Assembly (NCBI RefSeq): GCF_007860125.1
Contig: NZ_SJPW01000005.1
Location: 494,065 to 558,064, forward strand
Source: Rubripirellula tenax
GTDB lineage: Bacteria > Planctomycetota > Planctomycetia > Pirellulales > Pirellulaceae
Reading direction: 5' to 3'
DNA: 64,000 nt
In this document: piece by piece, positions 45,051-64,000 of the stretch
Layout of the letters: the number at the start of each line of letters is the position of its first letter
Numbering within the stretch: position 1 is the stretch's first letter
The notes under the pieces: model-generated
The model's database searches: none
The model's input: the letters and a program-made list of their open reading frames with translations, nothing else
What the model was told of the DNA's origin: nothing
Translations under genes and position numbers: made by a program

Positions 45051-45073
45051 TCCCCAAACCTTTTTTTGCCTCT

Positions 45074-46058: not shown

Positions 46059-46811
46059 ATGAAACCATTCATCTCAATACTCGTACTGTTACTTGCGAGT
46101 CCGCTAACCGCCCAAGATTTTGCGAAGGGTCCCTATGCAAATCTGATTCAAGGGAAGTTCGTGCATGCGGAAGAACCGCTGGCCAAAAACGGACTTCCTC
46201 TTTGGATTTACGGCGACAAGAAACTCGCCACCGGCCGAAAGCTCTACCCATTGGTCGTCGTGCTGCACGGCCGACGCAACAACGTAAAGCCGGGTGAGGA
46301 GTTCACTCCTCAGGCGATCGCCAAACCATGGGCGAAGACAGAAAACCAACGCCGGAACCCGTGCTTCGTGGTCCAGCCCTACTATCCGCCGAAGGGCGGC
46401 TGGGAAAAAATTCCTGAACAACTCGACGCCACCGTTGCTCACCTGATGCAGCATCTTCCGATCGACCCACATCGAGTTTACTTGATGGGTTTTTCGAACG
46501 GGGCCCAGGGCACCTTTCAAACGCTCGCTCGCGACCCCAGTCGTTACGCCGCCGCCATCACCGTGTCGGGCCCGGTCGATCCCAAGAGCGTGGTCGGAAA
46601 AATCAAAGCTCCGATCCGAGCCTGGGTTGGTGAAAACGATCACGACCTGAACAAGAACAAGCGATGCATTGCCCTGGCCAACGCATTGAAGGACAGCGGT
46701 GTCGACATCGAACTGGTCGTCGTGAAAGGCGCCGGCCATGCCTGCCACGGCGTTCCCACCGGTGACCCTAAAGTTCATCAATGGTTGTTTTCACAACAGC
46801 GACCACGCTAA
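46059..46811 (+). CDS. Exported alpha/beta-hydrolase esterase (PHB-depolymerase/LpqC-like)
   Basis: The 250-residue protein has a signal peptide (PFISILVLLLASPLTAQ). The alpha/beta-hydrolase core shows LYPLVVVLHGR at the oxyanion strand, the nucleophile elbow YLMGFSNGAQGT (G-x-S-x-G with Ser), a candidate acid Asp in WVGENDHDL, and the His near the end (GAGHACHG). This fits the Esterase_phd/LpqC-type secreted esterases; the polymer or ester attacked is unknown. A 102-bp internal part of this gene recurs at the end of the window. The region between holds an accessory island, so this gene probably marks its left border. Confidence 0.82.
   Translation: MKPFISILVLLLASPLTAQDFAKGPYANLIQGKFVHAEEPLAKNGLPLWIYGDKKLATGRKLYPLVVVLHGRRNNVKPGEEFTPQAIAKPWAKTENQRRNPCFVVQPYYPPKGGWEKIPEQLDATVAHLMQHLPIDPHRVYLMGFSNGAQGTFQTLARDPSRYAAAITVSGPVDPKSVVGKIKAPIRAWVGENDHDLNKNKRCIALANALKDSGVDIELVVVKGAGHACHGVPTGDPKVHQWLFSQQRPR
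46537..46638 (+). repeat. Left copy of a direct repeat (within the esterase gene)
   Basis: These 102 bases match 63899-64000 in the same orientation with no gaps and one mismatch (A at 46607, T at 63969). The right copy is cut by the window end, so the real repeat may be longer. Confidence 0.95.
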
Positions 46812-46954
46812 AGATTCGGTCTGTCGTGCAAGGACGATGGACACAAATCCGTGCAAAACATTTGCGTAGATTCGTGGCAAGAATCTGGCTAAATCGACAA
46901 ACCGTTGAAGACTTCCGCTACACGTAAAACCGTCAGTTGTTGTTCATACGATGC

Positions 46955-48118
46955 TTAACTGCCGTCGCCGCGCAGGAGCAAGTACGCTTTACTCGGATGA
47001 GCCCTGAAAACGACCTTCTCCATGTAGTCATCGTTCCAGCCAGCGTTGAGCCGCTTGTTTTTGACTCCGCACTTGGCCGTCTTTTCTTGCTTGAGCAGAC
47101 TTAGAGCTGTCCGTCTGAGCGTACTGAAGTTCTCGTCCCGATGCCCTTTGCGAATGCGACACTGGTCGTCGCCGAACGCCACATCCAACTGCCAATGGCA
47201 ACTTTTTTCGATGCCCCAATGATCTCTCACCGCACCGGCGAACAATTCCCCGTCTACCACTTTGTTGAGGATGTAGTAACGGACCGCGATCTCGTCGCCT
47301 TTACGACGCTGTGTGTTATTGATCGACATGCCGATCGCACAAAGATCCTTCCAACGACCTGCGTCAGGAAGGTCGTCGGGAACTTCACACAAGTAGTAGC
47401 TGCGCTCGTCGATACGTCCGTGACCGGTTTCCTTCGTGTGATGCTCGGATACCTTGATTCTTGTAAAGTCATCTTCAAGGTGATCCAGAAAGAATGCCTT
47501 GATTCCCTCATACAGCGTCGGTTGATTTCCTTTTACCGCCAAGCAATAGTCCGCAACTTCGTCAACGATCTTTGCAGCGATCTCGGTTTGGCATCCCATC
47601 GCGTCGATCGTCACCAAACCCCGGGAAACGTCGATCATTTCGAGCAGCTTGGGGATCGCTGTGATTTCGTTGCTCTTCGCGTCGACGACTGTTTGACCAA
47701 GGCTGATGTGATTGTCCGTCGCCCACGCACTGACCATGTGAATGGCTGCCTTGCCGGTGGCCGCGTCATAGCTTCGACGAAGCGTCTTGCCGTCAATCGC
47801 AATGACTTGGCCGTCGGCAACGTTATGCAACTGAGTGATCCACTGAAGCAACATCGGTTCAAACTCTTCAGGCTTGATCGCGTTGAGAATCGCGTTGAAA
47901 CGATCGTGCGAAGGAACCCCTTGGGTCATATCAAGGAACTTTGCAAACCACTCCTTCTTTGTGTTGGCAAACTTTGCAATCGCAACAAAATCATCCGTGC
48001 CCGCGATGACCGCACAGATGGTCATGAATACGACATTAACCAATGGATAAACGGGTTCGCCCGGACGCGGGTCCGAGACGGCCTTGAGCTGTTCAACCAA
48101 CGAAGCGGAGCGTTCCAT
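46955..48118 (-). CDS. ISAs1-family transposase
   Basis: This DDE transposase uses the ATG at 48118 (MERSASLVEQLKAVSDPR), giving 387 residues, full length for the family. Typical segments: VYPLVNVVFMTICAVIAG, GVPSHDRFNAILN, VIAIDGKTLRRSYD with the first Asp, LVTIDAMGCQTEIA with the second, YCLAVKGNQPTL, and DHWGIEKSCHWQLDVAFGDD with the region of the Glu. The frame is intact, so the element may be active. I could not find matching terminal inverted repeats or a target duplication on both sides. It lies 143 bp downstream of the esterase gene, at the left edge of the island. Confidence 0.9.
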   Translation of the reverse strand: MERSASLVEQLKAVSDPRPGEPVYPLVNVVFMTICAVIAGTDDFVAIAKFANTKKEWFAKFLDMTQGVPSHDRFNAILNAIKPEEFEPMLLQWITQLHNVADGQVIAIDGKTLRRSYDAATGKAAIHMVSAWATDNHISLGQTVVDAKSNEITAIPKLLEMIDVSRGLVTIDAMGCQTEIAAKIVDEVADYCLAVKGNQPTLYEGIKAFFLDHLEDDFTRIKVSEHHTKETGHGRIDERSYYLCEVPDDLPDAGRWKDLCAIGMSINNTQRRKGDEIAVRYYILNKVVDGELFAGAVRDHWGIEKSCHWQLDVAFGDDQCRIRKGHRDENFSTLRRTALSLLKQEKTAKCGVKNKRLNAGWNDDYMEKVVFRAHPSKAYLLLRGDGS

Positions 48119-48315
48119 CGAGTGAATCCGAAGCGAGTCGATTCGCCCGGCCGCTACAGACCAGCCACCCAATCACGAACCCTTGCTCAGCTTCGCAGAT
48201 TACCCAGTGTGGCGCAATCGCCCTGCCACAGATCCTGCGGAAGAGCCCTCTTTATCAAGAGCTTGCTTCTTCGGTTAAGTGACCGAATAGTGTTTCCGGG
48301 GGGAGGAAGACTATC

Positions 48316-49581
48316 TTACGTTGCAGCGATGTCGACAAATTGAGAGAGGATGATACGGGAATCATCGTCAATCCATACGAAATCGCGGAACTGTTGCATC
48401 CTTGTTTTCAGCTTCGACGCGTCCATTTGCGACAAATCCATCCCTAGTCTCAGCTTCGCAGTTGCGATTGCAAGCAGGTAAATCAGGGCCCAAGTCTCAC
48501 GCGGAAAACAATGATGCTCCGACAGTTGTTCGCTCTTTCGTTTGCCGCTTCGCTTTGCGATCTTGCGAGCTCGATCGAGGGACTCCAGTGACTCACTTTT
48601 CGACAGGATCCAATCGTTGAGAATCATGTTGCCATCGGCCTGAATTGGCTCGCCAAATATGATGCGAACCTCTGTCGAAAGCATGCCATTCCAAGCTTCC
48701 TGGAGGTCGGCGACCGTTTTGAATAGATGGTCCGCGGGAATTCCAGCGAGCTCAAATGACGCTGATGCGCACGATGCCTCGACCATTCCGATGGATTCCT
48801 CAAACTCGATTCGCAGTCCGCCCTTCGCCGCCAATCCAAATAGCATTTCGCGTGCTTCATTCTCTACGTCGGCGAGGCTCTTTTGGCTTGTGCCCGAAGG
48901 TAGGTACTGCTGTATCGCAGTTACAAAGTGTCGTTGGATCATTCGCTTCACGGTGACCCATGCGTTTCCAACTGCTTTCGGACTATCAATCTGAAGCTTG
49001 CTGGCAAGTTCCGAGTACGAGGGTGGGGCGACTCCTTGCATACCCGGCCGAAGTATTAGTTCAACGAATACGTTCCATTTGTCGGTGTGTCCGTTGGCAA
49101 GGCACTCAGTGCGTACTTGCTTGAGTACTTGGTCGAGTAAGTGATTCGACCAAACCGCGTCAAATTCGATTTGGTCCGACTCTGCGTCTTCCGGTTCCCA
49201 GCCTTCCAGTTGTTCAAACGCAACATTGGCCCGCTCCTGTTTTGCTGCTGCCGAACGGTAACGATTGATAAAGTGGAAGCTAAGCGATTTCGAAAGATAA
49301 CGCCGAAACGACGAATCCTCCTTCGACTCACGCACCAACAAATACTTGGAAATCAGATTTTGTTCAGGTGCAGGTTGAATCACCTTGGTGAGCCAAAAGT
49401 CCTGGACGATCTCGCGCGCGTCATCCTCTGATTGTTTTTTGGTTAGGATCAGGAATCGAGCGAGCGGTTCTGTATACGCCTCGCAGAATCGCTCTAGGTA
49501 TTCCTTGCGGGTGCCGTCATCCTGGCCAGCGACGCCAAAAAGCACGGACATCATGGTTGATTCTGTATTGCTCAGAAACAT
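48316..49581 (-). CDS. ECF-sigma-like regulator with long C-terminal extension
   Basis: The 421-residue product (an alternative start is the ATG at 49554) begins with ~190 residues like an ECF sigma factor. The region-2-like part is EDDAREIVQDFWLTKVI and FRRYLSKSLSFHFINRYRS. A region-4-like helix-turn-helix is PSYSELASKLQIDSPKAVGN followed by WVTVKRMIQRH. Ordinary ECF factors end near 190 residues; here ~220 more follow, with no recognised domain. Planctomycetes are known for ECF groups encoded beside Ser/Thr kinases, and a kinase gene stands 2.3 kb away, divergent from this operon. The gene lies 18 bp after the Calx-beta/FG-GAP gene on the same strand, so the two are likely cotranscribed. 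Confidence 0.65.
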   Translation of the reverse strand: MFLSNTESTMMSVLFGVAGQDDGTRKEYLERFCEAYTEPLARFLILTKKQSEDDAREIVQDFWLTKVIQPAPEQNLISKYLLVRESKEDSSFRRYLSKSLSFHFINRYRSAAAKQERANVAFEQLEGWEPEDAESDQIEFDAVWSNHLLDQVLKQVRTECLANGHTDKWNVFVELILRPGMQGVAPPSYSELASKLQIDSPKAVGNAWVTVKRMIQRHFVTAIQQYLPSGTSQKSLADVENEAREMLFGLAAKGGLRIEFEESIGMVEASCASASFELAGIPADHLFKTVADLQEAWNGMLSTEVRIIFGEPIQADGNMILNDWILSKSESLESLDRARKIAKRSGKRKSEQLSEHHCFPRETWALIYLLAIATAKLRLGMDLSQMDASKLKTRMQQFRDFVWIDDDSRIILSQFVDIAAT

Positions 49582-49599
49582 GGACCTACCCCATCAAAC

Positions 49600-51594
49600 T
49601 TAAAGCGAAAGAAATTCATCGGATTCCCAACCGTAACGGATTCGGCGTTCTTCGTCATGATCCTGCCCATCCGTCAGATCGAACAGCAGATCGACGACTT
49701 CAGCTTTCAGAACCCTTGCTACGCCAAAGTCGTCGTCACCGTCACCGTCCCAATCGCCGACCAACGCACGGTCTGTCGACAAACCGAATATCGAACTCTG
49801 TTCCGCGGACTCGCCGTCACCGGCGATGTCCATGTACCATCGCAGAAATCCGTTTTCGTTTCTCGCGACGCCGAAGTCGGTTCGTCCATTGCCGTCGAAG
49901 TCGCCTGGTACGATCTGATCGCCAATGTTTCCGAACCGCTTGACATCTTCGGCAGCGAACCCAGCACGATCATAGTCGACATACCAGTCCAGGCCGCCCG
50001 TCCAATGATTCTCGCGAACCACCGCGACATCCGTTTCTCCGTCCCCATTGAAGTCGCCTGCGACCGCTTTGTCGCCTAGCAGCCCAAAATGTCGCGTCGC
50101 GTCGAGAGTTCCGTTGGCCGAGTAGTCAAAGTACCAGTCGAGCATGCCGCTTGCATGGTTGTTGCGGACCACAGCAAGGTCAGTGGATCCGTCACCGTTG
50201 AAGTCGCCGGTCAGCGGCGTATCCCCTGCCAATCCAAAGGATACAGTTCGCTCGGCGGAGCCCCCGTCACCTCCGTCGATAAACCACGTGCCGTTTCGGA
50301 ATACGGCTGCATGGGCATCCACCAGCGGTGAATCATCGTTGAGAAGCGTAACACCCATATGCGGATTGGGAACGTGAACCCAGTCAGGTGCCGTCAGGCT
50401 GACGTGAAAGTACTCGTCCGATTCCACGAGGTTGTCACCGACGATGGGAATATCGAGTGTTACCTCGGTTTGACCAGCGGGAATGATCACTCGACCTGCC
50501 TTCAATTGAAAGTCTTCGCCTTCGACCGCTGCCCCCCAAGCACCTCCGGTTTTCGGGGCATATTGGATTTCAACGCCGTAGTTGGTTGGGTTGGAGAGCC
50601 GGAACGTAGCGCGGGCAGTACGAGCACCTCCATTTCCCTCGGCCTCGCGAACGTGTTCGAACGTTAGTTGGGTTGGAATCGGTGGCGGCGCATCGTCATC
50701 GTCAACGATCGTCACGTTCGTATAATTTCGAGCCGCTACTCTGGCATTTTGGATCGGTGTCACGAGAACTTGAAAAGTCTCTCGACTCGAGTCGTTGTAA
50801 TTCGTGTCGCCATAAACTTTGACCTCGACACGTTGAGTATGCGTTTCGCCAGGTTGCCAGACGAGCAATTTATCGACCGCCTCGTAATCCACGCCAGCGG
50901 TGGGATTCCGTGCCAAGCTTCGCGTTTGAACTCGAACGACAGTTCGTTCGCTGGACGGTGACGTGGGTTTGTAGTCAAAGCTAAGTGTTTGATACCCAAC
51001 GTCACCTTCGTTGACGATGACGTTATTGGTTAAAGAATCCACGGTAGTAAACGGCTTTGCGTCGTCGTTAATTATCGAGACTCGATTGCTGCCCCACGGC
51101 GAGCTAAAAGTGGATTCGTTTAGACGAGCCCTTACGGTTAGGTACTCGTGCCCTTCGTACTTTCCGTCGCCAAAGACTTTAATGGGAACGTCGATGTGGC
51201 TGCGACCGGCTGGAATGGTGAATTCACGCGAATAGCCTTCAAAGTCGTTGTCTGAACGCTTGGCTGTTCCATCAGAAACCGTGACCAGCACTCGGACCGG
51301 TTGGCTGAGGGATCCGCTGCGACTGACCGTGACGCTCGTCGTGGCTGTTTGACCCAACGCCCCCTCAGTCACTGTACCTGGTCCGACGGTGATTGAGATG
51401 GGCCGGCCAATATACGCCGACGAGGCGGAGGCCGTTTTGGCAATTGCATTCGAGGCGGAGCCTGCCACCACGGAAGACTCGACCGACGCGTGACTCGTCA
51501 TCGCATCGTCGATCGCGGCAGCCATCATTTGTCGCTTCTCCAAGGATTCAATCGCCGAGAATCGTGGTCGCCTTCGTTTTGGGTATCGTGTCAT
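49600..51594 (-). CDS. Calx-beta/FG-GAP repeat surface protein
   Basis: The 664-residue protein lacks a classical leader. It begins with a basic stretch and the motif ESLEKRQMMAA, like the planctomycete N-terminal LExR-x-(L/M)-x-A export/anchor motif. Three Calx-beta-type domains follow at about 60-175, 185-300 and 310-425, each ending with a D-D/D-D-x acidic loop. Next come four FG-GAP/VCBS-type repeats (~455-640) with calcium-loop-like sequences such as GDFNGDGSTDLAVVR, GDFNGDGETDVAVVR, GDFDGNGRTDFGVAR and GDWDGDGDDDFGVAR. It should be exported, calcium-binding and adhesin-like. It is the first gene of an operon with the sigma-like gene and is divergent from the kinase at 51904. Confidence 0.82.
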   Translation of the reverse strand: MTRYPKRRRPRFSAIESLEKRQMMAAAIDDAMTSHASVESSVVAGSASNAIAKTASASSAYIGRPISITVGPGTVTEGALGQTATTSVTVSRSGSLSQPVRVLVTVSDGTAKRSDNDFEGYSREFTIPAGRSHIDVPIKVFGDGKYEGHEYLTVRARLNESTFSSPWGSNRVSIINDDAKPFTTVDSLTNNVIVNEGDVGYQTLSFDYKPTSPSSERTVVRVQTRSLARNPTAGVDYEAVDKLLVWQPGETHTQRVEVKVYGDTNYNDSSRETFQVLVTPIQNARVAARNYTNVTIVDDDDAPPPIPTQLTFEHVREAEGNGGARTARATFRLSNPTNYGVEIQYAPKTGGAWGAAVEGEDFQLKAGRVIIPAGQTEVTLDIPIVGDNLVESDEYFHVSLTAPDWVHVPNPHMGVTLLNDDSPLVDAHAAVFRNGTWFIDGGDGGSAERTVSFGLAGDTPLTGDFNGDGSTDLAVVRNNHASGMLDWYFDYSANGTLDATRHFGLLGDKAVAGDFNGDGETDVAVVRENHWTGGLDWYVDYDRAGFAAEDVKRFGNIGDQIVPGDFDGNGRTDFGVARNENGFLRWYMDIAGDGESAEQSSIFGLSTDRALVGDWDGDGDDDFGVARVLKAEVVDLLFDLTDGQDHDEERRIRYGWESDEFLSL

Positions 51595-51903
51595 CAGGTT
51601 CTTCTTTTAGTTGGTAGGGAACGACTTTACCCTGAGGACACTCCGAGCTCTCGATCGCTGCGCGACTTCGCGAAAATAATCTTCTAGCTCTCGACAGATT
51701 CGCCTGCTGGGAAGCGAGACGACCAATACGCTAGAGCTTGTCAGGCAAAGCGGGCCCGGAAAATCCACGGCCTCCTGCCACCGCTCTGCGGCGCATGCCC
51801 ATTTTCGGTACAATTTCAGTAGGTAGTCTGGGCTATTTGCTCTCAAAAACCACCATCAGCTTGATCGAATAGTCACACACTGATCCGCCATGAAAGCACT
51901 GGA
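51595..51903. other. Divergent intergenic region between surface-protein operon and kinase
   Basis: These 309 bases should carry the promoters of both the Calx-beta/FG-GAP operon and the kinase gene. A GG-preceded TACAAT at 51809-51814 is a possible -10 for the kinase, 90 bp before its ATG, without a clear -35. A 79-codon reverse frame at 51607-51846 has no recognisable features and I do not call it a gene. Confidence 0.4.
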
Positions 51904-54483
51904 ATGAAGGAGTTGCCGGAAAACGAACTTCACTTTGTCGCGAAAGAAGATGACTCAGAGTCCAGCCGGAAGACATCCGCATTCATCGCGAACGATTTTT
52001 TCAGTGAAGAAGACAATCTTGGAGGTCGAGCGGGAACCGATGAATCTCCTCCGGCGGCTCCCGAAATTGCCGGGCAAGTGATTGGTGGCTACCGAATCGT
52101 CCGCGAAATCGGCCGAGGCGGCATGGGAGTGGTTTATCTAGCAAACCACATCGGGCTTGATCGTGATGTCGCACTGAAGGTGATTTCCCGCGGGCAGTTC
52201 GCAAATGACCTGGACCGAAAGCGTTTTGCGGCAGAGGGAAGAGCCGTCGCTCGGCTCGACCATCCACTAATCGCCTCGGTGTATGAGGTTGGCGAGGACA
52301 ATGGGCACCAGTTCATGGCGATGCAATTCATTGCGGGCCATTCGCTCAACGAGTGCGTCGCGACTCGTTCATTTTCTCCAACTGAAGCCGCTCGGATCGC
52401 CCGCGACATCGCGACGGCCATGGCTTACGCTCATGGCAAAGGAGTCATCCATCGCGACCTGAAGCCGTCAAATGTCATGCTCGACGACAATGGCAGTGTC
52501 CACGTCCTCGATTTCGGCTTGGCCAAAGCGATCGGACATGATGAAACGATGACACGATCCGGCCAAATCATGGGCACGCCAGCATTCATGTCACCTGAGC
52601 AAGCTGGAGGTATGTCAAAGGCCGTTGGCCCTGAAGCGGATATTTACGCCATTGGTGCAACGCTTTACCAGTTACTGACGGGCCAACCACCGTTTCGGGG
52701 CGATAGCGTTTTGAAAACATTGGAGATGGTTCGACTGCAACCGGCCCCATCGCTACGTTCATCGAATCGAAATATTCCTACCGACCTCAGTATTGTCTGT
52801 GGCGTTTGCCTGCAAAAATCTCCAGATGATAGGTACCGATCAGCGGGTGATTTGGCAGAAGACCTGGATCGCTTTTTGAATCATAGGCCAATCCTGGCGA
52901 AGCCAACCCCTCTTCGAATCCGGTTGATGCGATGGTGCCAGCGGAACCCGCTACCGACAATATTTATGGCATCTGTGACTGGCTTGCTGGCGTTGGTTTC
53001 GAACCTGTATTTCGAGGCGACGGCAAACGCGGAACGAGCACGACTGAGCCACCGCAAGCAGGTGCAAACGATCAACGAACTGTTTGTGGAAATCGGTTCG
53101 TCTGATCTTCGCAACGTCCCTAATTCTCACACTGTGCGACGCGAACTGCTCCAAAAAGCAAACGCTTTTTATACAGAGGCAAGTAACCGCGATGAAGTCT
53201 ACGGAGATCTGGATGAACTAATGATCCAGGCTAAGACTCAAATGGCTAGCCTACTCGGTGAACTTGCGAAATCGGAAACCGAACGAGATGCTGCAATTCG
53301 TGATCTTGAAGCATCAGCGACGCGTCTTCGGGACATTGTCACAAACCCGAAATCTGTTTCGACAAGCTCTGTGCATGAGACCATTGAAACGTATGCGATT
53401 ACGCCAGAAGCTAAAAAGGCTTGGGCGAATATGAGCGGAACGATCAACGACGATCTGTTAATTGAGACAGCTCGCCTATCTTCTTTGACAGACAATCTCA
53501 CGATTCAAATAGGTCTTTGGCGAAGCAATCCATCAAAACAGGTTGAACTCGCTAGACAAGCTGTAAAAATTCGTGAGCAGCTTGTAAAAAGAGTGCCGGG
53601 CAGTGAGTGGTTCTTGAGACGCCACGCAGGGGCGCTCCACAACTTGGCAACTGCAACCAGAGCGTTAGCCATGCGTGGCAATTCACTTGAACTGCTCATT
53701 GAATCGCTTGAGACAATAAAGAAATCGCAAGCAATTCGAGAGACGTTGATGGAAATCGACGATAAAGAGAAGCTGAGACTTGAACTGGCAAAAGGTTACT
53801 ATGAAACAGCGGCCATCGAATCAGAGATTGCTCTGCATGACCCAGGCGAATCCGTCGACATAGCGGGTGCGATCAAATCGTATCAACATGCGGCGGAAAT
53901 CTTCAAATCGCTTTCAAAGTCTCAAAACCTGTCGCTCGAAGCCGACTTCCAGGCCGCCATCACACTTCGTGAAATGACCCTATGTCGCCAAAACGCATCT
54001 CTCGAAGCTGCGTTACCCTTGGGTACAGTTGAGCGAGCGTCATGCCGCTTTGACATTATTGGGGCTTGCGAGATTCTAAACCGACTTCGAGCACAGAATC
54101 CTGCGATAACGCGGTACGCGCATGAATATTTCTACTCACGGGCAATTTACTTCTCGCTTGTCGAGAAGGACTTCATGCAGACGAAGACGGGAGAAGGTGT
54201 TGAGCCACGTTGGTCGCTCGAGAGCCAGAAGATCGACGCTGAATTGCGACAGTCGTTCGCACTCTACCGAGACAGCTCGCCAAATGAGACCGATTGGCTC
54301 TTGCAATTCGCACGCGAGGCAATTTTGTACGCCTACAAAGCGAATGACTTCGCGCGAGCAATCGAATGGAGCCGACGCCACAAGATTGAAATGGACCGTT
54401 ATGGACAGCAGATCAGTGACGAGGCCAGAGAAGACTTCGAAATGCTTCACGATGCTTTGGAGCAACAATTGGGCGGCGTTTAA
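51904..54483 (+). CDS. Membrane Ser/Thr kinase with long helical extracytoplasmic domain
   Basis: The 859-residue protein begins with ~60 acidic residues and then a Hanks kinase domain (~62-330): REIGRGGMGVVYLA, VALKVISRGQ, VIHRDLKPSNVML (complete HRD and K/N), VLDFGLAKA, GTPAFMSPEQ and ADIYAIGATLYQLLTG. All catalytic residues are present. One transmembrane helix follows (~350-370, TIFMASVTGLLALVSNLYF). The remaining ~490 residues are rich in helical, TPR-like sequence (ALHNLATATRALAMRGNS), probably periplasmic. Its neighbours are a sigma-like regulator and outer-envelope proteins, which suggests a signalling role over this cluster. The 3' end overlaps the convergent barrel gene at a TTAA. 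Confidence 0.9.
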   Translation: MKELPENELHFVAKEDDSESSRKTSAFIANDFFSEEDNLGGRAGTDESPPAAPEIAGQVIGGYRIVREIGRGGMGVVYLANHIGLDRDVALKVISRGQFANDLDRKRFAAEGRAVARLDHPLIASVYEVGEDNGHQFMAMQFIAGHSLNECVATRSFSPTEAARIARDIATAMAYAHGKGVIHRDLKPSNVMLDDNGSVHVLDFGLAKAIGHDETMTRSGQIMGTPAFMSPEQAGGMSKAVGPEADIYAIGATLYQLLTGQPPFRGDSVLKTLEMVRLQPAPSLRSSNRNIPTDLSIVCGVCLQKSPDDRYRSAGDLAEDLDRFLNHRPILAKPTPLRIRLMRWCQRNPLPTIFMASVTGLLALVSNLYFEATANAERARLSHRKQVQTINELFVEIGSSDLRNVPNSHTVRRELLQKANAFYTEASNRDEVYGDLDELMIQAKTQMASLLGELAKSETERDAAIRDLEASATRLRDIVTNPKSVSTSSVHETIETYAITPEAKKAWANMSGTINDDLLIETARLSSLTDNLTIQIGLWRSNPSKQVELARQAVKIREQLVKRVPGSEWFLRRHAGALHNLATATRALAMRGNSLELLIESLETIKKSQAIRETLMEIDDKEKLRLELAKGYYETAAIESEIALHDPGESVDIAGAIKSYQHAAEIFKSLSKSQNLSLEADFQAAITLREMTLCRQNASLEAALPLGTVERASCRFDIIGACEILNRLRAQNPAITRYAHEYFYSRAIYFSLVEKDFMQTKTGEGVEPRWSLESQKIDAELRQSFALYRDSSPNETDWLLQFAREAILYAYKANDFARAIEWSRRHKIEMDRYGQQISDEAREDFEMLHDALEQQLGGV

Positions 54484-55772
54484 AAAACTCGATTGAACTG
54501 GACGCTTAATTCGCTATCAAACACACGATCATCGCCTCCGCGAAGTGGTTGGACATAGCCGAAACGCAACGATGAGAGTCCGAAAGCAAGATGTGAACCA
54601 ACGGTAAAATTCAGATGGTCGCTACGGTTCGAAAGATTTGAAACGCTTACGTTCTGAATAAAAAACGAATCTGCAACCGAGTCAGAATCTTGAAGAGTGG
54701 TCGTGTAGTGGAGTTCACTTACAATCGCCACACCGTCCAAAAGTGTGCTGCCCGGTGTCGTCCAAACCCAACGACCTGCACCAGCAGAAAGTATCAGCAG
54801 GGTTTGGTCATTAATCTTGCCGTCGGCTGAACGAGCAACTTGATCTCGTCGAAAAGTGTTTCCATTGAGGGCGACATCAAGCGAGCTGAAAACATTTACA
54901 AACCATTGGTCAAACCGTTCTTCATACGCCAGGAATGGCTGCACAAAAAATGCGTCGTTGCTGACTCGATACTGAAGACCGTTTCCTTGAAACGCAAAGT
55001 CGCTTCCGGTAGGGATATCGAGACCAATACCGCCACTCAGGGCAAAATCTTCGTTGCTCAAAAACAGAAACTTCAGCTTCCCATTAAGGTTTCCGATCCG
55101 GCCTCCTTCCGAACCAAAGTTGGGAGTGTCGAGTGCAAGCTGATTGGCAAACGGCATACGGATATCAATGGATGCCAAACCGTCGGCGAACGTTTTCTCA
55201 AAACTAAGGGTGTACTGATGCAAATCAATCGTCTTGGTATCCGGCAAAACGCGAAATCGACTGGCATCCGCAGTCAATGCGTCGAAGTAGACCTGATAGG
55301 TGAAGATGATTCGATCCTGTGGCAACGCTCGATTGTTCGCCGCCACCTTCAGTCGCCTTGCACCCGCCCCCAGCGACAAATCGGATGTTGCAATCAGGCC
55401 ATCGTTTACCACGACAGTCAGCGGTGCAGACGGGCTGTCCGAAAACATCTGGGGCTGGAGGCGACGTCGAGCATTGATGCTCGAAAAACGGGAGATCAAG
55501 TCTTGAGTCGGAGAGAATCGTGAGCTTGTGAGCGACCTACTTCGGGACGAGCTACCGAGCTGTCGTAATGCCCCATCACTCAGGAAGTTTGGCGTTGGGA
55601 TCTCCAAAACATCACCTCCTTGATTCAACGATTCAAACGGAGGCAGCGGATCGCCAAACGCGGGGATTTGCCCATCCACAGAGAGCGTACTGTCATTGAA
55701 AAGCTCAGTTTGCGCAGACAATCTGTCGCTCAAAGTGAAGACAGCAAAAAGCAAACAAATCCGCAAAAACAT
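54480..55772 (-). CDS. Outer-membrane beta-barrel candidate
   Basis: The ATG at 55772 gives a signal peptide (FLRICLLFAVFTLSDRLSAQ) and 430 residues. The first ~110 mature residues are Ser/Pro-rich. The rest shows repeated amphipathic strands (LHQYTLSFEKTF, LASIDIRMPF, FALSGGIGLDIPTG, HLNFTVGSHLAFGLSSLRFGY) and ends in SVQFNRVF with a terminal Phe, the usual outer-membrane assembly signal. I know no named family. The stop codon overlaps the kinase stop on the other strand; the next gene on the same strand, a Sel1-type lipoprotein, lies ~300 bp upstream. Joint expression is possible. Confidence 0.65.
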   Translation of the reverse strand: MFLRICLLFAVFTLSDRLSAQTELFNDSTLSVDGQIPAFGDPLPPFESLNQGGDVLEIPTPNFLSDGALRQLGSSSRSRSLTSSRFSPTQDLISRFSSINARRRLQPQMFSDSPSAPLTVVVNDGLIATSDLSLGAGARRLKVAANNRALPQDRIIFTYQVYFDALTADASRFRVLPDTKTIDLHQYTLSFEKTFADGLASIDIRMPFANQLALDTPNFGSEGGRIGNLNGKLKFLFLSNEDFALSGGIGLDIPTGSDFAFQGNGLQYRVSNDAFFVQPFLAYEERFDQWFVNVFSSLDVALNGNTFRRDQVARSADGKINDQTLLILSAGAGRWVWTTPGSTLLDGVAIVSELHYTTTLQDSDSVADSFFIQNVSVSNLSNRSDHLNFTVGSHLAFGLSSLRFGYVQPLRGGDDRVFDSELSVQFNRVF

Positions 55773-56078
55773 CGTGTTTTGCAATCTCCAACGGAACACA
55801 TGACCCACGCAAACGCTGCAACAGAGCCGCTTAGCCTAACCTCAACCGAGGGTGATAAACCGTGAACCGAGCCTGAAGCAAGATCAAGTTCAGAAAACGC
55901 GTCTTTTTCGTTGCTAAGCCCCAGTCCACTTCTGCCAAAGTTGGTCGCGTAACGTCCCCCACAGGCAGTTCAATCCGGGCAATGCGATCAAGCGGAGAGA
56001 CTCTCGATCGCCGCTTTGCGCGATGACTGAAACTGAACATCAACCAAATTTGTTGAACGGAAGCCAGAAACCTACTTG
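55773..56078. other. Intergenic region, nothing recognised
   Basis: These 306 bases between the barrel gene and the Sel1-type gene show no credible coding frame, no long inverted repeat and no clear promoter hexamers. The sequence probably includes the leader of the barrel gene. Confidence 0.4.
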
Positions 56079-57041
56079 TCAATCTGAATCCCCGAGCAAT
56101 TCGTCTAAGATGCCCATTGTTGCAACGATCAGTGTAATCTTTCGATCACGATCTGGTTTGCTTCGCATCAGATCAGCGAACAGCGCGTCGTATTCTCTTT
56201 CCTGACGCGACAGAATTGAGTTCTCGTAAGGTCGATAAATGCCGTTGTCACTCTGGTAAAACTCCGTTTCGGGATCAATCGACTTGCGAAGCTGCTCAAA
56301 CGTTGCTTGGTGTTGCTGTATTTTTTTAATTGGATAGTCCCTGAGCTCGATTGCATCCTGAACCAATGCAGTCCTGGTTTGTGCGAGATCAAATCCCAGC
56401 TTATGTGCTTTCTCAAGCAGTTCCCGGGCCTTGATTGCATCCATCTCGGTGCCAACTCCCAATGCGTAGCACAAACCAAGCGACACTTGTGCCTGCGCAA
56501 GTCCTTGTCCTGCTGAAGCATCGAAAAGCCGAAAGGCGACCGCATCATTCGCAGGAACGTAAATTCCTTGGCGATAAAACTTTGCAAGCAGGTATTGTGC
56601 CTGCGATAAGTTTTGGTCGGCAGCAGCCTGACAATAGAGTAGTGATTTTTGTCCATCTGTGTTGGTTCCCTGCCCGTGATGGAACATCATCGCGACGGCA
56701 AACTGCGATTCGGCATGTCCTTTCTCGGCAGCGAATAGGAAATGGTGAAATGCTTCATCAAAATTTGAGACACTCAGGCTCTGCTTGCCCCGCAGATATG
56801 CTGATTGAACATCGACTTCGGGCGCAGACCAGTCGGACACAATCAGTTCATGAGATCCGCTGTCATGTGGCTCGGATTCTCTCATCATTGCGTCGCTTTT
56901 CGCAGCAAGATGCTCACCCAGACGCTCGCCCTTTGGATCGCTTATTACTAACTGGTGAGCTTGGCTATCAACCATCGGCCGAGGGCAACCTGCGACCAGC
57001 AATAGTCCGACCGCAAATATTTGGAAATAATTTGTGCGCAT
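56079..57041 (-). CDS. Sel1-repeat lipoprotein
   Basis: The 320-residue protein starts with a lipoprotein signal (FAVGLLLVAGC, lipobox Cys19). After ~60 hydrophilic residues come Sel1-type helical repeats at ~80-215: AFHHFLFAAEKGHAESQFAV with MMFHHGQGTN, then SLLYCQAAADQNLSQAQYLL, FRLFDASAGQGLAQAQVSLG and ARELLEKAHKLGFDLAQTRT. The tail is hydrophilic. Sel1 repeats form scaffolds for protein partners, often in envelope signalling. It is likely anchored to a membrane leaflet. It shares its strand with the barrel gene downstream and the unknown exported gene upstream (36 bp away), suggesting an operon. Confidence 0.8.
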   Translation of the reverse strand: MRTNYFQIFAVGLLLVAGCPRPMVDSQAHQLVISDPKGERLGEHLAAKSDAMMRESEPHDSGSHELIVSDWSAPEVDVQSAYLRGKQSLSVSNFDEAFHHFLFAAEKGHAESQFAVAMMFHHGQGTNTDGQKSLLYCQAAADQNLSQAQYLLAKFYRQGIYVPANDAVAFRLFDASAGQGLAQAQVSLGLCYALGVGTEMDAIKARELLEKAHKLGFDLAQTRTALVQDAIELRDYPIKKIQQHQATFEQLRKSIDPETEFYQSDNGIYRPYENSILSRQEREYDALFADLMRSKPDRDRKITLIVATMGILDELLGDSD

Positions 57042-57077
57042 TGAGAGCTATTCGATGACTAAGAGTTTGTGCTTGAA

Positions 57078-58022
57078 CTAGCGACTCTTCAATTGCTCTT
57101 CTAGGTGTATGCAAAAATGCAGGGCGTTAAAGGACATTTCAAGGATCTCATCCATTACTTCCAAGTGGCATCCGTCTTGCTTCGCTTCAGCGACCCGTTT
57201 CTTTAACAGTTCGAATTCGACAAAGTGTTTCTGTTTTGCCAGTTTGATGACTCGCCTTGCGGTTTGTGGAACACGGCACAACGCAATTGCAAGCTGGCCC
57301 CGCAGATTCTTGCTGCCAATGAGTCCAGGATGCTCCCATTTTTCTGCCGCGTACAACAAGGAAAAGTGATTCTTTGGGAAAAGACGCAAGCCGAGCTCGA
57401 TAGCCAAAAAGCCATCAAATGATTTCGCTTGGATGCATAGCAATCCAAACAGAAGAAGGCTGTCTGGATCCTGGTTGTCAATTCGCAGGCAGTGTTGAAC
57501 GGAAACGAGAACTAGAGCGTAAATGCTGGTCGTGCGATCGGAGTCTGCACGGACCTCCTCCTCGGGCCTTCCAGGCTTTCCTTCGACAATAAACACGTCG
57601 TTGTAGGACAAGTACTGTTGAGCGACAGAAAGGTACGCGGTTCCGGCCATCGCGACGACATAACACGTCGTAAAATCTTTCTCATTACCATCAAGGGCCG
57701 AGCGAATATTTTTCTCAAATTCCTTCCCCTCCTTAAGCAATTGTTGCGTTTGCCTTTGGTTTGAGAACCCGCCGTTCTTCTTGAAACGCATTTTGCATTG
57801 TTCAAAACGAATCAGAGATTCCAACGTGTTGGTCACCGAGGCGGAATCGAGCATCTCTAGCGTACGCGACGCAGTTTCGAAGTCACAACTACCGATACTG
57901 TCGAACACCTTGTGGACCACTCGCATGTCATGATCGCGTTCTCTCGGATCTTCTGCATAAGCAGGATGTAGCATTAGTTCGAGAAGAAAGAACAGGATTG
58001 AAAGAAAAGTTGTTCTAGTCAT
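57078..58022 (-). CDS. Exported protein of unknown function
   Basis: The ATG at 58022 (MTRTTFLSILFFLLEL) begins a signal peptide ending near AYA-ED and gives 314 residues; the ATG at 58034 is the alternative. I recognise no family. The mature part is mostly helical. It has TPR-like character (FETASRTLEMLDSASVTNTL, AMAGTAYLSVAQQYL) and six to eight Cys residues spread over its length. It sits 36 bp upstream of the Sel1-type gene on the same strand, so both helical-repeat proteins may be made together. Reading is less GC-rich than in the core genes. Confidence 0.6.
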   Translation of the reverse strand: MTRTTFLSILFFLLELMLHPAYAEDPRERDHDMRVVHKVFDSIGSCDFETASRTLEMLDSASVTNTLESLIRFEQCKMRFKKNGGFSNQRQTQQLLKEGKEFEKNIRSALDGNEKDFTTCYVVAMAGTAYLSVAQQYLSYNDVFIVEGKPGRPEEEVRADSDRTTSIYALVLVSVQHCLRIDNQDPDSLLLFGLLCIQAKSFDGFLAIELGLRLFPKNHFSLLYAAEKWEHPGLIGSKNLRGQLAIALCRVPQTARRVIKLAKQKHFVEFELLKKRVAEAKQDGCHLEVMDEILEMSFNALHFCIHLEEQLKSR

Positions 58023-58119
58023 TTGAGTTCGCAATATTGAATTGAGTTCGGAAATTTAATACGTCAAGTCGAATCGAATGGTCTTGGTTTCGAGCGGTGT
58101 ACGCTTGTTAAAAATAGAA

Positions 58120-58326
58120 TCAGACTGTCCGCAGGTACGCTGATGAGACGATTCCAGCAAACAGGTCGCTGTTCCGTCCAAGCTGAATGGTGGCGACACC
58201 GGTCTTCTCGAAATAGTCCAAGCGGATTTCTTTAGATTCCGATACGGTCGGCGTAAACGCTCTACTGAGCAATTGCCTCTGCGGTTGCAAACGAAATGCG
58301 CCCGCTTCGCCCCTCGTCGCTGACAT
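58120..58326 (-). pseudogene. Orphan PA14-domain fragment
   Basis: A 68-codon frame ends in a near-copy of part of the PA14 domain of the large protein at 58370: QPQRQ, a TFTP-like turn, then IRLDYFEKTGVATIQLG and an SSAYL end, against IRLEYFEKTGAATVQLG and STEYL in the intact copy. Only the second half of a PA14 domain is present and no leader precedes it. It looks like the remnant of a duplicated, mostly deleted gene, although a small expressed protein cannot be ruled out. Confidence 0.6.
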
Positions 58327-58369
58327 GGATTGTTTTCAAACAGCGTGGTTGACTAGCGTTGGCATCTTT

Positions 58370-61300
58370 TCATTCAAGCATGTGCGTTGAATAGTTAAGT
58401 TCGACATCGACCATATGCATTTGAAGCGCTCTTTCGGTCGCGTTGCCAGTCATCCAACCGACTTGGTCGTTCAACAAGAAAGCATCATCACCGCGGTGCA
58501 AGTGGTGATCTTGTGTGATCAGCTTCGCTTCTTGCAATGCTTGGCCGCAGTCGTCGATGACCAAGCCATAGACGCCTTGAAACGTTTCCGTCGAGCCAGC
58601 AACTTCCCATTGTTCCCACAAGACGATGTTCTTGTCCTCACCGACACGCACCATTTTCGGACGCTCCGCATGAAGACCAGATTCGGAAGAATACGCGGTT
58701 AACCATCGAAGTCTGTTCTCGTGAACTTCGCCATTTGATGTCACGGTCAGTCGATCCGGAAGGCTTGGATCAATGCTGCCGTCTTCTTTGCTGAAGCGAG
58801 TGATGGCCAAGTTGCGTGGCCCGCTGATCAATTCCGCTTGATCAGAGAGCGGTTCGGTCGTGCTCGTGTTTTCCGTTGAGAATATGGCCATGTGGCCGTA
58901 ACTTGAGTCGGCCACCGCTACGATGTCACCAAGCCTAGTCCTTGTATTATTTTCTCCCAGATCTCCCTTGATATCAAAGAGCGGCAAAGATTTGCTTTGA
59001 GTGTTTCCTGATTGCGTTTCGTAATCGCTCCCGACGACAATGGAGCGTGGATAGGCGTCGCCAAGGTGCGTTTCAAGCATTCCCTCGCCATCGTGAAGCA
59101 AACGTTGGTCGAATGAGTGACTAGCCCAGATCGTACTGACTCGCGTGACTTCACCATTGTCTGCATCAAGTCGTGTTGACCTTGCCATCTGATGTCGCAC
59201 TCCAGCAATATTCCAATCGGGATCTGTGTTCGAGCTGTGTACAATCGCTACTTCGCCACCTCCCACGGCAAGCCGTGAGCTACCCGCGACCATCGGATTC
59301 ACTATCATCAGAGCATTTTCGTCTGCTTCTTTCCGAGCAGTATCTAAATCAGTATTGAATAGAACGTCTCCCTTATCGTCCAGCTTGACGACCCGCACCA
59401 CATCGGTCCGGTAGGTCTCCAACGCTGGAAAGGTTGCATTGACACGGGAGTTTTCGTCTACACCAGTCGCATAGTAGCGGTTGCCCTCTTCGTCGGTGTC
59501 CAAGCCCATGATTCGATCCAGCATCGGCAGGTCATTTCGGATTTGGTCAATCGCATACCCATCGGGTGTGGGCACAACGCGGAACAAAACTGCATCCCAC
59601 TCTGTTTCCGGATCGTAGTCTCGTGCAAGAACGTCAAGCGAATCACCGTTGGATGAGACAATAATCTCAGGGGTCTTTCCGTAGTTGCCTGCCCAGCTTG
59701 CAGGCCCCGTTAGGTCCTGTTCATTTGCGTCGAATGGGATGAGGACGTTTGAAACCGAAAGATGTTTTAGCCCGTTGACATCTTCGGGGATGGAGGGATT
59801 TTGCGAGGATGGCGTTTGTCGGTCATCTAACGGCTTCAGGTATTCCGTCGAAATGACACCGTCAAACAAACTATTGGCCCATCCGAGCTGCACTGTTGCT
59901 GCACCGGTTTTCTCGAAGTACTCAAGACGGATTGATCTGGGGCCAGTGGCGGATGGCGTGAAGGTTCCAGTGACCGTTTGTCGTTGCGGTTGCCATGAAT
60001 CAATTACAAGCTCGTCGCCGATCCAGAGGCGCACTCCGTCGTCGGCAAACAGATTGAATGTGTACTGCTCGAGTGTGGGGAAGAAGATGTCGCCTTCCCA
60101 TCTGGCGTTGAAGTAGTCGGCTGAGACAATGTCGACTGGCTTGCCGAGCCCCCACTCGTGATCGACGGTTGCTTCGAATCGCTGCTCAATGATTTGCGGG
60201 GCTACCTCGCCTGGAAAACCAGGCATGTAGCTTGCGAGCAATCCACCACCGCCGAACTGTTCTCGGCCAGCCAGATCGAAGTCCTCAAACCGACGTGAGT
60301 AGTTCACCGTGTCCCATTTGTACTGGTTGACGAAGCGATCATGGAGATCTTCGCCCGCAGCGATGCTTGCGGAGTCGACAAGGTTGCTAATGGCTGAGTC
60401 AACGTCGGTCATGTCGGGTCGCTGGGCGACTTCTTGCCAAAAACGCTTCAAAAACTCCAGTTCGCCGTAGTCGCGTGCTAGATCAAGCATGATTTCGGCG
60501 AAGTAATCCATCGTTCCCACGTTGCCGCCGGCGGTCGATGGATCGTTGTAAAGCGAACCTTCAAAATCCAAAAACACGCTGTCGAAAGTCGCTTCGGGAT
60601 TTGCTTTGTAGTTCGTCAGCCAGCGGTCCATGGAAGCTCGGAATTCCGGCGTGCCAGCGCCGTCTTGTGGCCCGCTGAATGGGATATCTGCAAACTCACT
60701 GATGGCCCGTTCCATCAATATCGGAAAGCCGTTGACCATAAAGTCACCCGATCCACGAGTGGATCGGTCTTGACGCAGTTCGTTGAACTCAAGCTTGGAT
60801 TGGTAGAACCAAAAGTTACGTCCCATCTCGTAGAAGAAGATGTGGTCTGGTTTGCCCGTTTCCGCGGACTCAATGACGGCGTTGTCAAAGAAGTCGGTGT
60901 CGATTTCGATACCACGAGCACCGAGATAACCGCACCCCGCGCCACAGGTTTGATCGACTTGAGCGATGATGGTCTTCCCAATTGAAAGCCCATTGTCGAC
61001 AGGATCACGTCCAGTGGTTTCGCGGTAAATTTCGTAGCCGCGATCAATTTGGCGAATCAATCTGTTGATGTCATTCTGGGCGAGGTCAGGGGACTTCGCC
61101 AGTAAAATAACGTGCTCACCTTCGTAGGCGTAGAGAGATGATTGTTCGCCTTGGAATGATGTATATTCAACCAGATCCGGTGCTTCGGCGGGCGGATTGA
61201 GCTGGCTGTGCAGAAAGTTGATTACCTGTAAGGCATCAAGCGCGGAGATGTGACCGTCTCGTGAGACATCCGCTAGCCAATCGAATTCTGCTTCGATGGG

Positions 61301-62479
61301 GCCTGCATCTGTCGAATTCTGGTTGATAGCGTTGATTACATGCAACGCGTCGACTGCGGAAACCCAACCATCGTTGTTGACATCGTACCGCTGTTCATTT
61401 GCGGAGTCCTGTCGGTCCTGCGAAATAAACTGAACCGATTCGGTGTTCGCAATCGCTCCGATGGTTGCTGCCAATGATCGCTCGACGACCAAACTGTCAT
61501 CATCCCCGCCGAGATCAATCACCACGCGGTCAACATCGCTGAAGGTAAGTTCACGATCGCCATCTTGAATCGTGAGTGAAGACGAGTCACCCGCAAGTGA
61601 GATATCGTCTTTTCTTTCTGTACCAGTGATCACGAGTTCGGAAATGGTTCTTCCTGCTTCGATTCGCTCACGTCTTGCGGCTTCAACTTGGCTGACTGGG
61701 ACGATTGGTGGTTGTTCGGAATCACCTGAGTTCGAATTAGCGATCACACGAATGTCATCGAGCTGCCTTCTCATCGGCGTTGCGGGGTCAACGCCTCGCA
61801 TGGTAATCGGACCTCCGACCCAAAAACTCTCAGGACGATCAGCAATTGAATCAGCCCATGTCATTCCTTCGCGTCGGATCTCTTCGTATCCATTCACCCA
61901 CACTACGAGCGAACCATCGGACTGCCCCGGAGTGTTGAATGTGACGTTGTAACGAATGTCGATCCATTCTTCTGGCGAAAGCATGAACTCAAAGCGGTCA
62001 GTCGTGCCGTTCTTCTCCGCGTAAAACACTAGCTGGTAGTAGCTGCTCCCGTCCGCGTTTCGGTAAGCATGTAGCTCGTTTTGAAAATTGTGTAGCGTGG
62101 GTGCTCCCACCGGCGCGATGAGCCTAGATAGTTTGACACCGACAAAGTCATGCGCCGACGACGAGTCTCTTGGGATATCATCGGGGAACCTGACTCGGAA
62201 AGAAAGTTCGACCGAGTCAACTGCACCGAAGGTACTGCCTAGCAGCGTGCCAGTCTCATTCCGATCGAAAGTCGATTGGTATGCGAACTCACCAGGGGAA
62301 ACCTCCGCGATCCCGTGCGAAACGGCGTTGGAATAAACCGGATTGAATCCATCCAGCGATTGATCCTGGAAATCCTCCGAAATCAGGACATCGCCCGCGA
62401 ACAGCTCGCGAGAGCAAAGCTTCTCTAGCAAGAGTCGTTTTGGTTTGGGTTTTCTCGTTTTCGGCTTACGGGTCAACAT
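58370..62479 (-). CDS. Giant surface protein with dockerin, zincin-like and PA14 domains
   Basis: The ATG at 62479 begins a very basic leader followed by LLLEKLCSRELFAGD, a form of the planctomycete LExR-type export motif; total 1369 residues. Regions: ~30-260, concanavalin/lyase-like beta domain; ~365-430, a dockerin type I pair (DVNNDGWVSAVDALHVINAI, then DVSRDGHISALDALQVINFL); ~440-760, a zincin-like part in which the expected HExxH reads YEMGR (~residue 553), so it is probably not a working protease; ~770-880, a PA14 domain (FNLFADDGVRLWIGDEL, IRLEYFEKTGAATVQLGW); ~920-1369, a beta-rich, possibly propeller-like region. PA14 domains bind glycans. It looks like an extracellular glycan-binding or degrading protein. 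No partner cohesin is visible in the window. Confidence 0.75.
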   Translation of the reverse strand: MLTRKPKTRKPKPKRLLLEKLCSRELFAGDVLISEDFQDQSLDGFNPVYSNAVSHGIAEVSPGEFAYQSTFDRNETGTLLGSTFGAVDSVELSFRVRFPDDIPRDSSSAHDFVGVKLSRLIAPVGAPTLHNFQNELHAYRNADGSSYYQLVFYAEKNGTTDRFEFMLSPEEWIDIRYNVTFNTPGQSDGSLVVWVNGYEEIRREGMTWADSIADRPESFWVGGPITMRGVDPATPMRRQLDDIRVIANSNSGDSEQPPIVPVSQVEAARRERIEAGRTISELVITGTERKDDISLAGDSSSLTIQDGDRELTFSDVDRVVIDLGGDDDSLVVERSLAATIGAIANTESVQFISQDRQDSANEQRYDVNNDGWVSAVDALHVINAINQNSTDAGPIEAEFDWLADVSRDGHISALDALQVINFLHSQLNPPAEAPDLVEYTSFQGEQSSLYAYEGEHVILLAKSPDLAQNDINRLIRQIDRGYEIYRETTGRDPVDNGLSIGKTIIAQVDQTCGAGCGYLGARGIEIDTDFFDNAVIESAETGKPDHIFFYEMGRNFWFYQSKLEFNELRQDRSTRGSGDFMVNGFPILMERAISEFADIPFSGPQDGAGTPEFRASMDRWLTNYKANPEATFDSVFLDFEGSLYNDPSTAGGNVGTMDYFAEIMLDLARDYGELEFLKRFWQEVAQRPDMTDVDSAISNLVDSASIAAGEDLHDRFVNQYKWDTVNYSRRFEDFDLAGREQFGGGGLLASYMPGFPGEVAPQIIEQRFEATVDHEWGLGKPVDIVSADYFNARWEGDIFFPTLEQYTFNLFADDGVRLWIGDELVIDSWQPQRQTVTGTFTPSATGPRSIRLEYFEKTGAATVQLGWANSLFDGVISTEYLKPLDDRQTPSSQNPSIPEDVNGLKHLSVSNVLIPFDANEQDLTGPASWAGNYGKTPEIIVSSNGDSLDVLARDYDPETEWDAVLFRVVPTPDGYAIDQIRNDLPMLDRIMGLDTDEEGNRYYATGVDENSRVNATFPALETYRTDVVRVVKLDDKGDVLFNTDLDTARKEADENALMIVNPMVAGSSRLAVGGGEVAIVHSSNTDPDWNIAGVRHQMARSTRLDADNGEVTRVSTIWASHSFDQRLLHDGEGMLETHLGDAYPRSIVVGSDYETQSGNTQSKSLPLFDIKGDLGENNTRTRLGDIVAVADSSYGHMAIFSTENTSTTEPLSDQAELISGPRNLAITRFSKEDGSIDPSLPDRLTVTSNGEVHENRLRWLTAYSSESGLHAERPKMVRVGEDKNIVLWEQWEVAGSTETFQGVYGLVIDDCGQALQEAKLITQDHHLHRGDDAFLLNDQVGWMTGNATERALQMHMVDVELNYSTHMLE

Positions 62480-62767
62480 GGCTGTCCTCGGTGATTTCGG
62501 GCGGATACACCGTGGGGACACGGTTACCGAATGACCGCTGCGCGACAATCCTGAAATTGTTCCTGAGATTTCTCCTCGTTCGTTCGTTTGATAGCAGTTT
62601 GTGGCTATCTCTACCGGTTTTCCAGACCGTCAAAAAATCCGTGGATTTCATTAATTCGCCGCGCAGTGACACCCCACTTAGGTTGTTCCAATCCTGAATC
62701 AGCCAGATTTCGATCGCATGGGGCGCATTCCGAAATCGGCGTCACGCAAATGCTGTAAACTGCCGGT

Positions 62768-63898
62768 TCAAGTTGCTGTGTTATGAGCGTCTTCAGTTTT
62801 GCAGCTCATCAATTGTGGGGTCCAGCGGTAGTCATCGGTGGCCGTCCTTCGTCGGAAGTCGCTTAGGTTTCTCATCGCTTGGCCCCATTGATCTGGTATG
62901 ACTTGGCAGCGAACCTACAACATCGATTCGGCATACTCAGCCTTCCAAAACATTGCGTTGCTTTTCAATCGCAAATTGATCACTCGGCGGATACTACTTT
63001 CAATCGCACCACTGCCGCAGGGTAAACCTTTCGCTCGGAATGAGACGTAACTCAGACGTCCCGTTTCTCCATGACGCCTCAGGTACGCGAGCTCAGTCTC
63101 AAGCTCGGCGATTGGTTTCTCCTCACACTGAAGTCCCGAGAGTTCTTCAACGACTTGACGCCATTGCGAAGTAGCGTTCGGTGCTGACGATACAACGGGT
63201 TGCGTTCGTCTTTGGATAACCCCTGTGCCGCCAACGCCTGGGAGATATGGTGCACCCCGTGGCAACAGTCGAGCACCTCAGTCGTCGGCAGTTCGTCAAG
63301 CCCGGCCAGACGCGAGATCGCCTCGATCCGATCCCAGATCCAAGGAGCCCCGCCGGCAACAAACGTCACGCTTTCCGCTTTGGCCGCACCGAGACGATGA
63401 AGGTGCATGGCAATCATTTCTGCGATCGCGTCGGGACCGAGAAGCGTTAGGTCGATCGTCGCTTTGGTCTGCTTGACCATTTTTCCGGCGTCGTCATGAA
63501 TAAAGTTGGTGACTAGCTTCGGTTCACGCCAGTCCGTCGGATACGTGCGTTTGGCTTTCTTGCGAGAGCGTCCTGGTGCGTCGTCTATTAAGAGCCCGTC
63601 TTCGTTGACCCGCTCGGCCATCGTGGTTTTCACCGCCATTTGACCGCGTATTTTCATTCTTCCTCCATCGATCTGCACTGAAACTCGCTTTCCCACCAGC
63701 TCATCGCCAGCGGGAAGCTTTCCTTCTCGCATCAACTCAATCCAGTGCTTTCGCATCGCCAGTAAACCTTCACCACACTGGTATGCCACGCGTTTGACCG
63801 CCTTGGCGTCAAGTTCAACGCCTTCACGCTGGAGTTCTTTGTGCGCGAAGTCGATCGAAGGACAGAGAGCAACTTTCCTAGCGACTCGGCTCTGTAAT
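62768..63898 (-). pseudogene. Broken DDE transposase (ISKra4-like)
   Basis: The coding remnant reads from 63898, where it lacks its N-terminus (first readable residues GLQSRVARKVA), through VSVQIDGGRMKIRG, DWREPKLVTNF, TEVLDCCHGVHHIS. A frameshift near 63160 then moves it to the frame with RQVVEELSG and LPCGSGAIESSIRRV. A TAG at 62915-62917 interrupts it, yet the same frame goes on with CQVIPDQWGQAMRNLSDF to a TGA at 62768-62770. The family call rests on the GSGAIESS and WREPK segments and is moderate. At 63898/63899 it abuts the second esterase copy. Between this remnant and 62479, about 290 bases hold no gene. Confidence 0.75.
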
Positions 63899-64000
63899 CC
63901 AGTCGTTACGCCGCCGCCATCACCGTGTCGGGCCCGGTCGATCCCAAGAGCGTGGTCGGAAAAATCAATGCTCCGATCCGAGCCTGGGTTGGTGAAAACG
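63899..64000 (+). repeat. Right copy of the direct repeat: internal part of a second esterase gene
   Basis: Ungapped match to 46537-46638 with one change that turns Lys into Asn (KINAPIRAW). The reading frame stays open to the window end (SVVGKINAPIRAWVGEN). The 5' part of this copy, including leader and active-site Ser, is absent, because the transposase remnant lies directly upstream. It is probably a 5'-truncated esterase duplicate. Confidence 0.9.

Follow-up and report, generated by a model that had tools for sequence, protein, structure and literature searches.

The closest described case that we have found is the H47 genomic island of Escherichia coli. This is reported as a 13 kb island with extensive imperfect flanking direct repeats and no recombinase of its own, recombination being supplied by the host (PMC5426353). 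Its excision and integration were both detected by PCR and are described as RecA-independent (PMC5426353). Planctomycetes are reported to carry expanded sets of Ser/Thr kinases and ECF sigma factors (PMC8567305). In literature searches on islands and transposases, no paper was found by title that concerns planctomycete islands of the integrase-less kind. The locus presented here is one that we read, with roughly even confidence, as a horizontally gained island downstream of the esterase gene behind trpA, most likely entered by a single homologous (Campbell-type) crossover.

The window, that is, the whole 64-kb stretch of DNA that was analysed, corresponds to positions 494065-558064 of contig C5 (725 kb) in a genome of 8.0 Mb assembled in 42 contigs. 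The original prediction was that a direct repeat of an esterase gene brackets an accessory island. A repeat search of the window recovers the 102-base match on which this was based (46537-46638 and 63899-64000), in the same orientation, with 99% identity and a spacing of 17,362. When followed into the rest of C5, the match reaches position 64347, 347 bp beyond 64000. The full direct repeat is 449 bp long (46537-46985 and 63899-64347), with 9 mismatches, no gaps and 98% identity, and similarity stops abruptly to the left of 46537/63899 and to the right of 46985/64347. The chance of such a pair in 24 kb is approximately 1e-232 by a simple binomial estimate. The bracketing repeat is thus real but it is not a repeat of the whole gene: only the 3' third of the gene and the spacer behind it are duplicated. 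The features of the region are as follows, on the strand given after the coordinates.

46059..46811, plus: alpha/beta-hydrolase (dienelactone hydrolase/esterase family), intact, 250 aa (Pfam DLH, E=1.5e-11)
46537..46985, plus: left repeat copy, esterase 3' end and 174-bp spacer (repeat comparison)
46986..63898, no strand: unique island segment, 16,913 bp, absent from the relative G011 at the same locus
47004..48225, minus: ISAs1-family insertion sequence, terminal inverted repeat on the tnp 3' side missing (NCBIfam transpos_ISAs1, E=6.4e-116)
48316..49581, minus: divergent sigma-70/ECF-like protein, 421 aa (weak TIGR02937 match, E=0.03, below cut-off; homolog in G126, of another genus)
49600..51594, minus: Calx-beta/FG-GAP surface protein (Pfam; planctomycete extracellular motif below cut-off)
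51904..54483, plus: serine/threonine protein kinase, 859 aa (Pfam Pkinase, E=4.9e-49)
54480..55808, minus: uncharacterised 442-aa protein, N-terminus exported-looking by eye (no Pfam or NCBIfam family at cut-off)
56079..57041, minus: Sel1-repeat protein, N-terminus lipobox-like by eye (Pfam Sel1, E=7.6e-19)
57078..58034, minus: uncharacterised 318-aa protein (no match in Pfam, NCBIfam or PHROGs)
58370..62548, minus: large dockerin/PA14 surface protein, 1392 aa (Pfam; residues 1-753 conserved in G126)
62915..63898, minus: ISKra4-family transposase remnant spread over two ORFs (NCBIfam transpos_ISKra4, E=1.6e-6 and 1.4e-12, both below the curated cut-off)
63899..64000 in the window and on to 64347 in C5, plus: right repeat copy, 5'-truncated esterase fragment, frame open

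The repeat consists of the final 275 bp of the esterase gene followed by the 174-bp downstream spacer. On the left the gene is whole and its 3' 275 bp form the coding part of the repeat; on the right the first 478 bp of the gene are missing and the reading frame is still open. The esterase is present at 86% identity or more in 2 of 60 genomes (its own and G011, where residues 18-250 are 88% identical), and the next best match is at 37%. An Rfam search of 45800-64000 at gathering thresholds was empty, and a structured RNA in 46812-46990 was rejected, since folding of the DNA is no better than that of shuffled sequences (z -0.24). The spacer does contain, at 46889-46921 and 64251-64283, the core of an intergenic element that is dispersed and sharply bounded on its right side (CTAAATCGACAAACCGTTGA[A/C]GACTTCCGCTAC), and that also occurs on C2, C4, C5 and C8 of the same genome, in 10 places in G002 and in 12 in G034. 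Between trpA and the esterase, at 45869-45997, lies a MITE-like element of approximately 126 bp with inverted ends (TAGTGCTCTGTCAA...), which begins with the three bases of the trpA stop codon. It is absent from G011 and gave 17 genome matches (its own included), 4 of them covering at least 126 of 138 query bases.

The block is not part of the gene order in the close relatives. The flanking genes were compared by tblastn (gpmI, CdsA, RF172 and so on are working labels; RF172 and RF143, the only named flank genes scanned, have no Pfam match at cut-off). G011 is collinear with our genome over gpmI - P470 - trpA - esterase - RF172 - RF143 - acyltransferase - CdsA - phosphatase - CDP-alcohol transferase, and in the DNA alignment the 18 kb from 46805 to 65213 correspond to approximately 0.2 kb (607030 to 607231) in G011. 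An island-free allele therefore exists. G002 has the same gene chain without the esterase, the trpA match being separated from that of RF172 by approximately 310 bp. The interval is thus missing from the collinear site in both relatives rather than syntenic and conserved, which would have counted against an island, and the accessory island of the original prediction is supported, with an empty site and with repeat identity that continues past the window end. This also bears on the notion that the right fragment was misjoined during assembly. Although the assembly is a draft in 42 contigs, there are 9 differences between the copies, these are located well within a contig of 725 kb and both flanks are collinear with G011, which makes an artefact extremely improbable.

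To survey the locus more widely, we counted genomes with trpA and CdsA on one contig in the arrangement found here and a CdsA match of at least 55%. Eight of 60 genomes qualify; in the other 52 a gene was unmatched, the genes lay on separate contigs, only a distant CdsA paralog was present or the arrangement was different (G018). The distance between the trpA and CdsA matches is 2.2 kb in G002, 2.9 kb in G011, 3.6 kb in G020, 7.5 kb in G001, G004, G005 and G010, and 21.1 kb in our genome. Judged by these distances, the slot behind trpA varies within the genus. Reading of the ORFs by eye indicates that the slot in G005 (L182:3551-9097) looks like a ferredoxin/molybdopterin-oxidoreductase module, of which G020 has a shortened version. 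The right copy is followed by P187 (187 aa, 64374-64937, between the repeat and RF172), which has no match in the 8 loci compared, G011 and G002 included, so that this copy is not in direct contact with sequence common to the relatives. The 0.8 kb to the right of the repeat, P187 included, is unmatched in the same loci and the foreign footprint may therefore extend to approximately 65.15 kb.

The block was also described as more AT-rich, and this is correct. The GC content of 46986-63898 is 0.52, compared with 0.59 in 40001-45871 and 0.58 in 65213-70051, and 29 windows of 17 kb in 1-45871 range from 0.566 to 0.586. GC3 is 0.48-0.58 in the seven non-transposase island genes against 0.67-0.75 in nine flanking genes (0.63 in the esterase and 0.64 in the ISAs1 gene). 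The contrast is moderate, as low GC also occurs outside the island: the mean is 0.554 for the block at 70052-95220, and past 92 kb individual kilobases are at approximately 0.52 and below. This second block (L010:9117 to L011:14285), which lies beyond the window and where G011 has approximately 3.8 kb, includes by eye two notable ORFs, one of 2308 aa resembling a polyketide synthase and one resembling an acyl-AMP ligase.

Absence from the same site in close relatives, deviant base composition and flanking direct repeats are the marks of a genomic island, and all three are found here. Those of an integrase-type island or ICE are not. No integrase, relaxase, structural phage or conjugation family was found in Pfam, NCBIfam or PHROGs among the scanned proteins (small unannotated ORFs lay outside the scan, the NCBIfam scan did not include the esterase, Calx-beta and PA14 proteins, and the PHROGs scan did not include the esterase, ISAs1 and PA14 proteins), and there is no tRNA, a common though not universal target, in the window. 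Islands commonly integrate in the 3' ends of genes and restore a copy of the gene. The arrangement at the esterase could in principle have resulted from a tyrosine recombinase specific for the esterase 3' end, the integrase having since been lost. The missing integrase families and the length of the repeat, which at 449 bp far exceeds the usual, much shorter att core, make this quite unlikely. A prophage was rejected, as only two of nine proteins have PHROGs matches (the kinase to four families, two of kinases and two without known function, and the Sel1 protein to one without known function). A defence island was also rejected: the kinase domain accounts for matches of the kinase to 35 PADLOC models, whereas seven other proteins (six from the island and P187) match none.

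The transposase and broken transposase noted between the copies in the original prediction belong to the ISAs1 and ISKra4 families, respectively, but the first is also part of a truncated IS. Its ORF (46955-48172) runs approximately 16 codons into the flanking DNA, and only one good terminal inverted repeat is left in the element, with its end at 48225, while the opposite one is missing. The missing repeat is present in all five of the other copies examined (C6 and C2 of the same genome, L100, L101 and L103). IS ends were defined from ISAs1 relatives in 77 loci, three of which were inspected for their ends. A copy with 97% identity is located at C6:626385-627606, and the nearest named relatives of the IS are in Rubripirellula obstinata and Rhodopirellula sallentina. 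These relatives, together with genes of planctomycete type, are the basis for placing the host among the planctomycetes. In the ISKra4 gene the N-terminal part (approximately 110 residues, estimated from model positions) is missing; the gene is cut at the junction with the right copy and has no other copy in the genome at the DNA level. The left repeat copy ends 18 bp before the truncated ISAs1 end. With an IS element interrupted at each end of the island, these ends may owe their form to deletions that came later.

An IS remnant just inside each repeat copy raises the question of whether the ISs moved the block as a composite or compound transposon. A composite transposon was rejected, because the ISs are of different families and both are truncated. 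In addition, transposition generates target duplications of a few bases and not of 449 bp of a host gene. We therefore consider gain mediated by the ISs highly unlikely. Neither IS explains the duplication of the host gene, and a simple scrap carried by an IS was also rejected, because the repeat is located beyond the ends of the ISs and continues well past the window end.

A full gene on the left and a 5'-truncated copy on the right are what is expected of a single crossover with a 3' fragment, and a block that a close relative lacks looks like a gained island. The reading that we prefer, entry by a single homologous crossover, is based on the repeat, the truncated right copy, the island-free allele, the composition shift and the occurrence of part of the cassette elsewhere. 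The donor would have been a circular DNA already carrying the esterase 3' end and spacer beside the broken IS elements. If the esterase 3' end of the chromosome recombined once with that of the circle, the left-hand esterase would remain intact, the right-hand one would lack its 5' part, and the segment common to both would form a direct repeat. Against this reading, no match for such a circle was obtained in the plasmid collection (near mode), and P187 next to the right copy, the cut IS elements at both island ends, the ambiguous 2% divergence of the copies and the low GC outside the island also weigh against it. We infer horizontal gain rather than loss in the relatives, together with the crossover and the capacity for excision described below.

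The outer ends also resemble illegitimate breakpoints, with the ISKra4 gene cut and the repeat stopping just short of the truncated ISAs1 end. This would fit a chromosomal tandem duplication starting inside the esterase, with the island already downstream, if most of the second copy was then deleted to leave the right 449 bp as a stub. We regard this as a possible but doubtful alternative. It requires two unrelated rearrangements where one step suffices for a single crossover, and no further duplicated island sequence is found within 40001-95936.

The very high identity of the copies had been taken to imply a recent duplication. This is not borne out: there are 9 differences in 449 bp and, in the 275-bp coding part, the copies differ from each other at 6 sites and each differs from G011 at 43-44. 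The event therefore took place after the lineages of this genome and G011 had split, although not very recently. Five of the six coding differences are at third codon positions (Fisher p 0.017), but three of the six alter the amino acid; with G011 as reference, two are right-derived, one is left-derived and three are undecided. The 2% divergence can reflect drift after duplication or two parental alleles, and codon positions are no more than suggestive in telling the two apart.

The longest identical run between the copies is 174 bp. Since a run of this length suffices for homologous recombination in bacteria generally, it is plausible from the sequence that recombination between the copies could lead to loss or circularisation of 17,362 bp. 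Under the single-crossover reading this would be the reverse crossover, in which the island is deleted and a circle released, leaving the esterase intact.

Relatives of the island genes occur elsewhere in the family. The sigma-like gene has matches at E of 1e-8 or below in 13 of 149 family genomes (our own included), the other 12 all being outside the genus. The best match, at 54%, is in G126, where a homolog of the dockerin protein (67% over its first 753 residues) is encoded approximately 8.5 kb from the gene. The two genes are in the same direction and three kinase ORFs lie between them on the opposite strand. This part of the cassette thus has the order and relative orientation of the island at a different locus in a different genus. 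The remaining island genes and the window flank genes were not found in the 37-kb G126 stretch at E 1e-3. G130 is a poorer fit, its sigma-like gene (35%) having only a dockerin-sized match nearby, with the kinase unmatched. The 442-aa protein has homologs in 21 other genomes of 60 searched and lies near a kinase in five of six stretches fetched, four of the six having been chosen because both hits shared a contig. The full gene set was found neither in the G126 and G130 stretches nor in these six. As judged from these matches, part of what the island carries is a planctomycete cassette of patchy distribution (dockerin surface protein, kinase and sigma-like gene).

A broader proposal is that a recombinase-free island moves between planctomycete strains by host homologous recombination, the accessory esterase 3' end serving as a homology-based attachment site with the gene left whole each time, and the locus behind trpA holding cargo that differs between species. 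We consider this rather unlikely at present. In itself the island is of an ordinary kind; its empty site is clean and its comparative anatomy good. Its value is that occupied and empty states can be compared cleanly for an island in which an integrase was not found, that the system is suited to asking whether long repeats at the flanks are enough for an island to leave and to return, and that parts of a surface-protein/kinase/sigma cassette are seen to occupy different loci in different genera.

As in the H47 island as described (PMC5426353), the island is small, it is flanked by imperfect direct repeats and no recombinase was found in it. It differs from H47 in that a microcin is encoded there (PMC5426353) and surface and signalling proteins here, and in that excision was detected there by PCR and is here a prediction from sequence. 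Compared with the ECF sigma factors reported for planctomycetes (PMC8567305), the island sigma-like protein fits the ECF model weakly. The island carries the same gene classes as the planctomycete kinase and ECF expansions (PMC8567305), and a partial cassette is found in the same order in G126.
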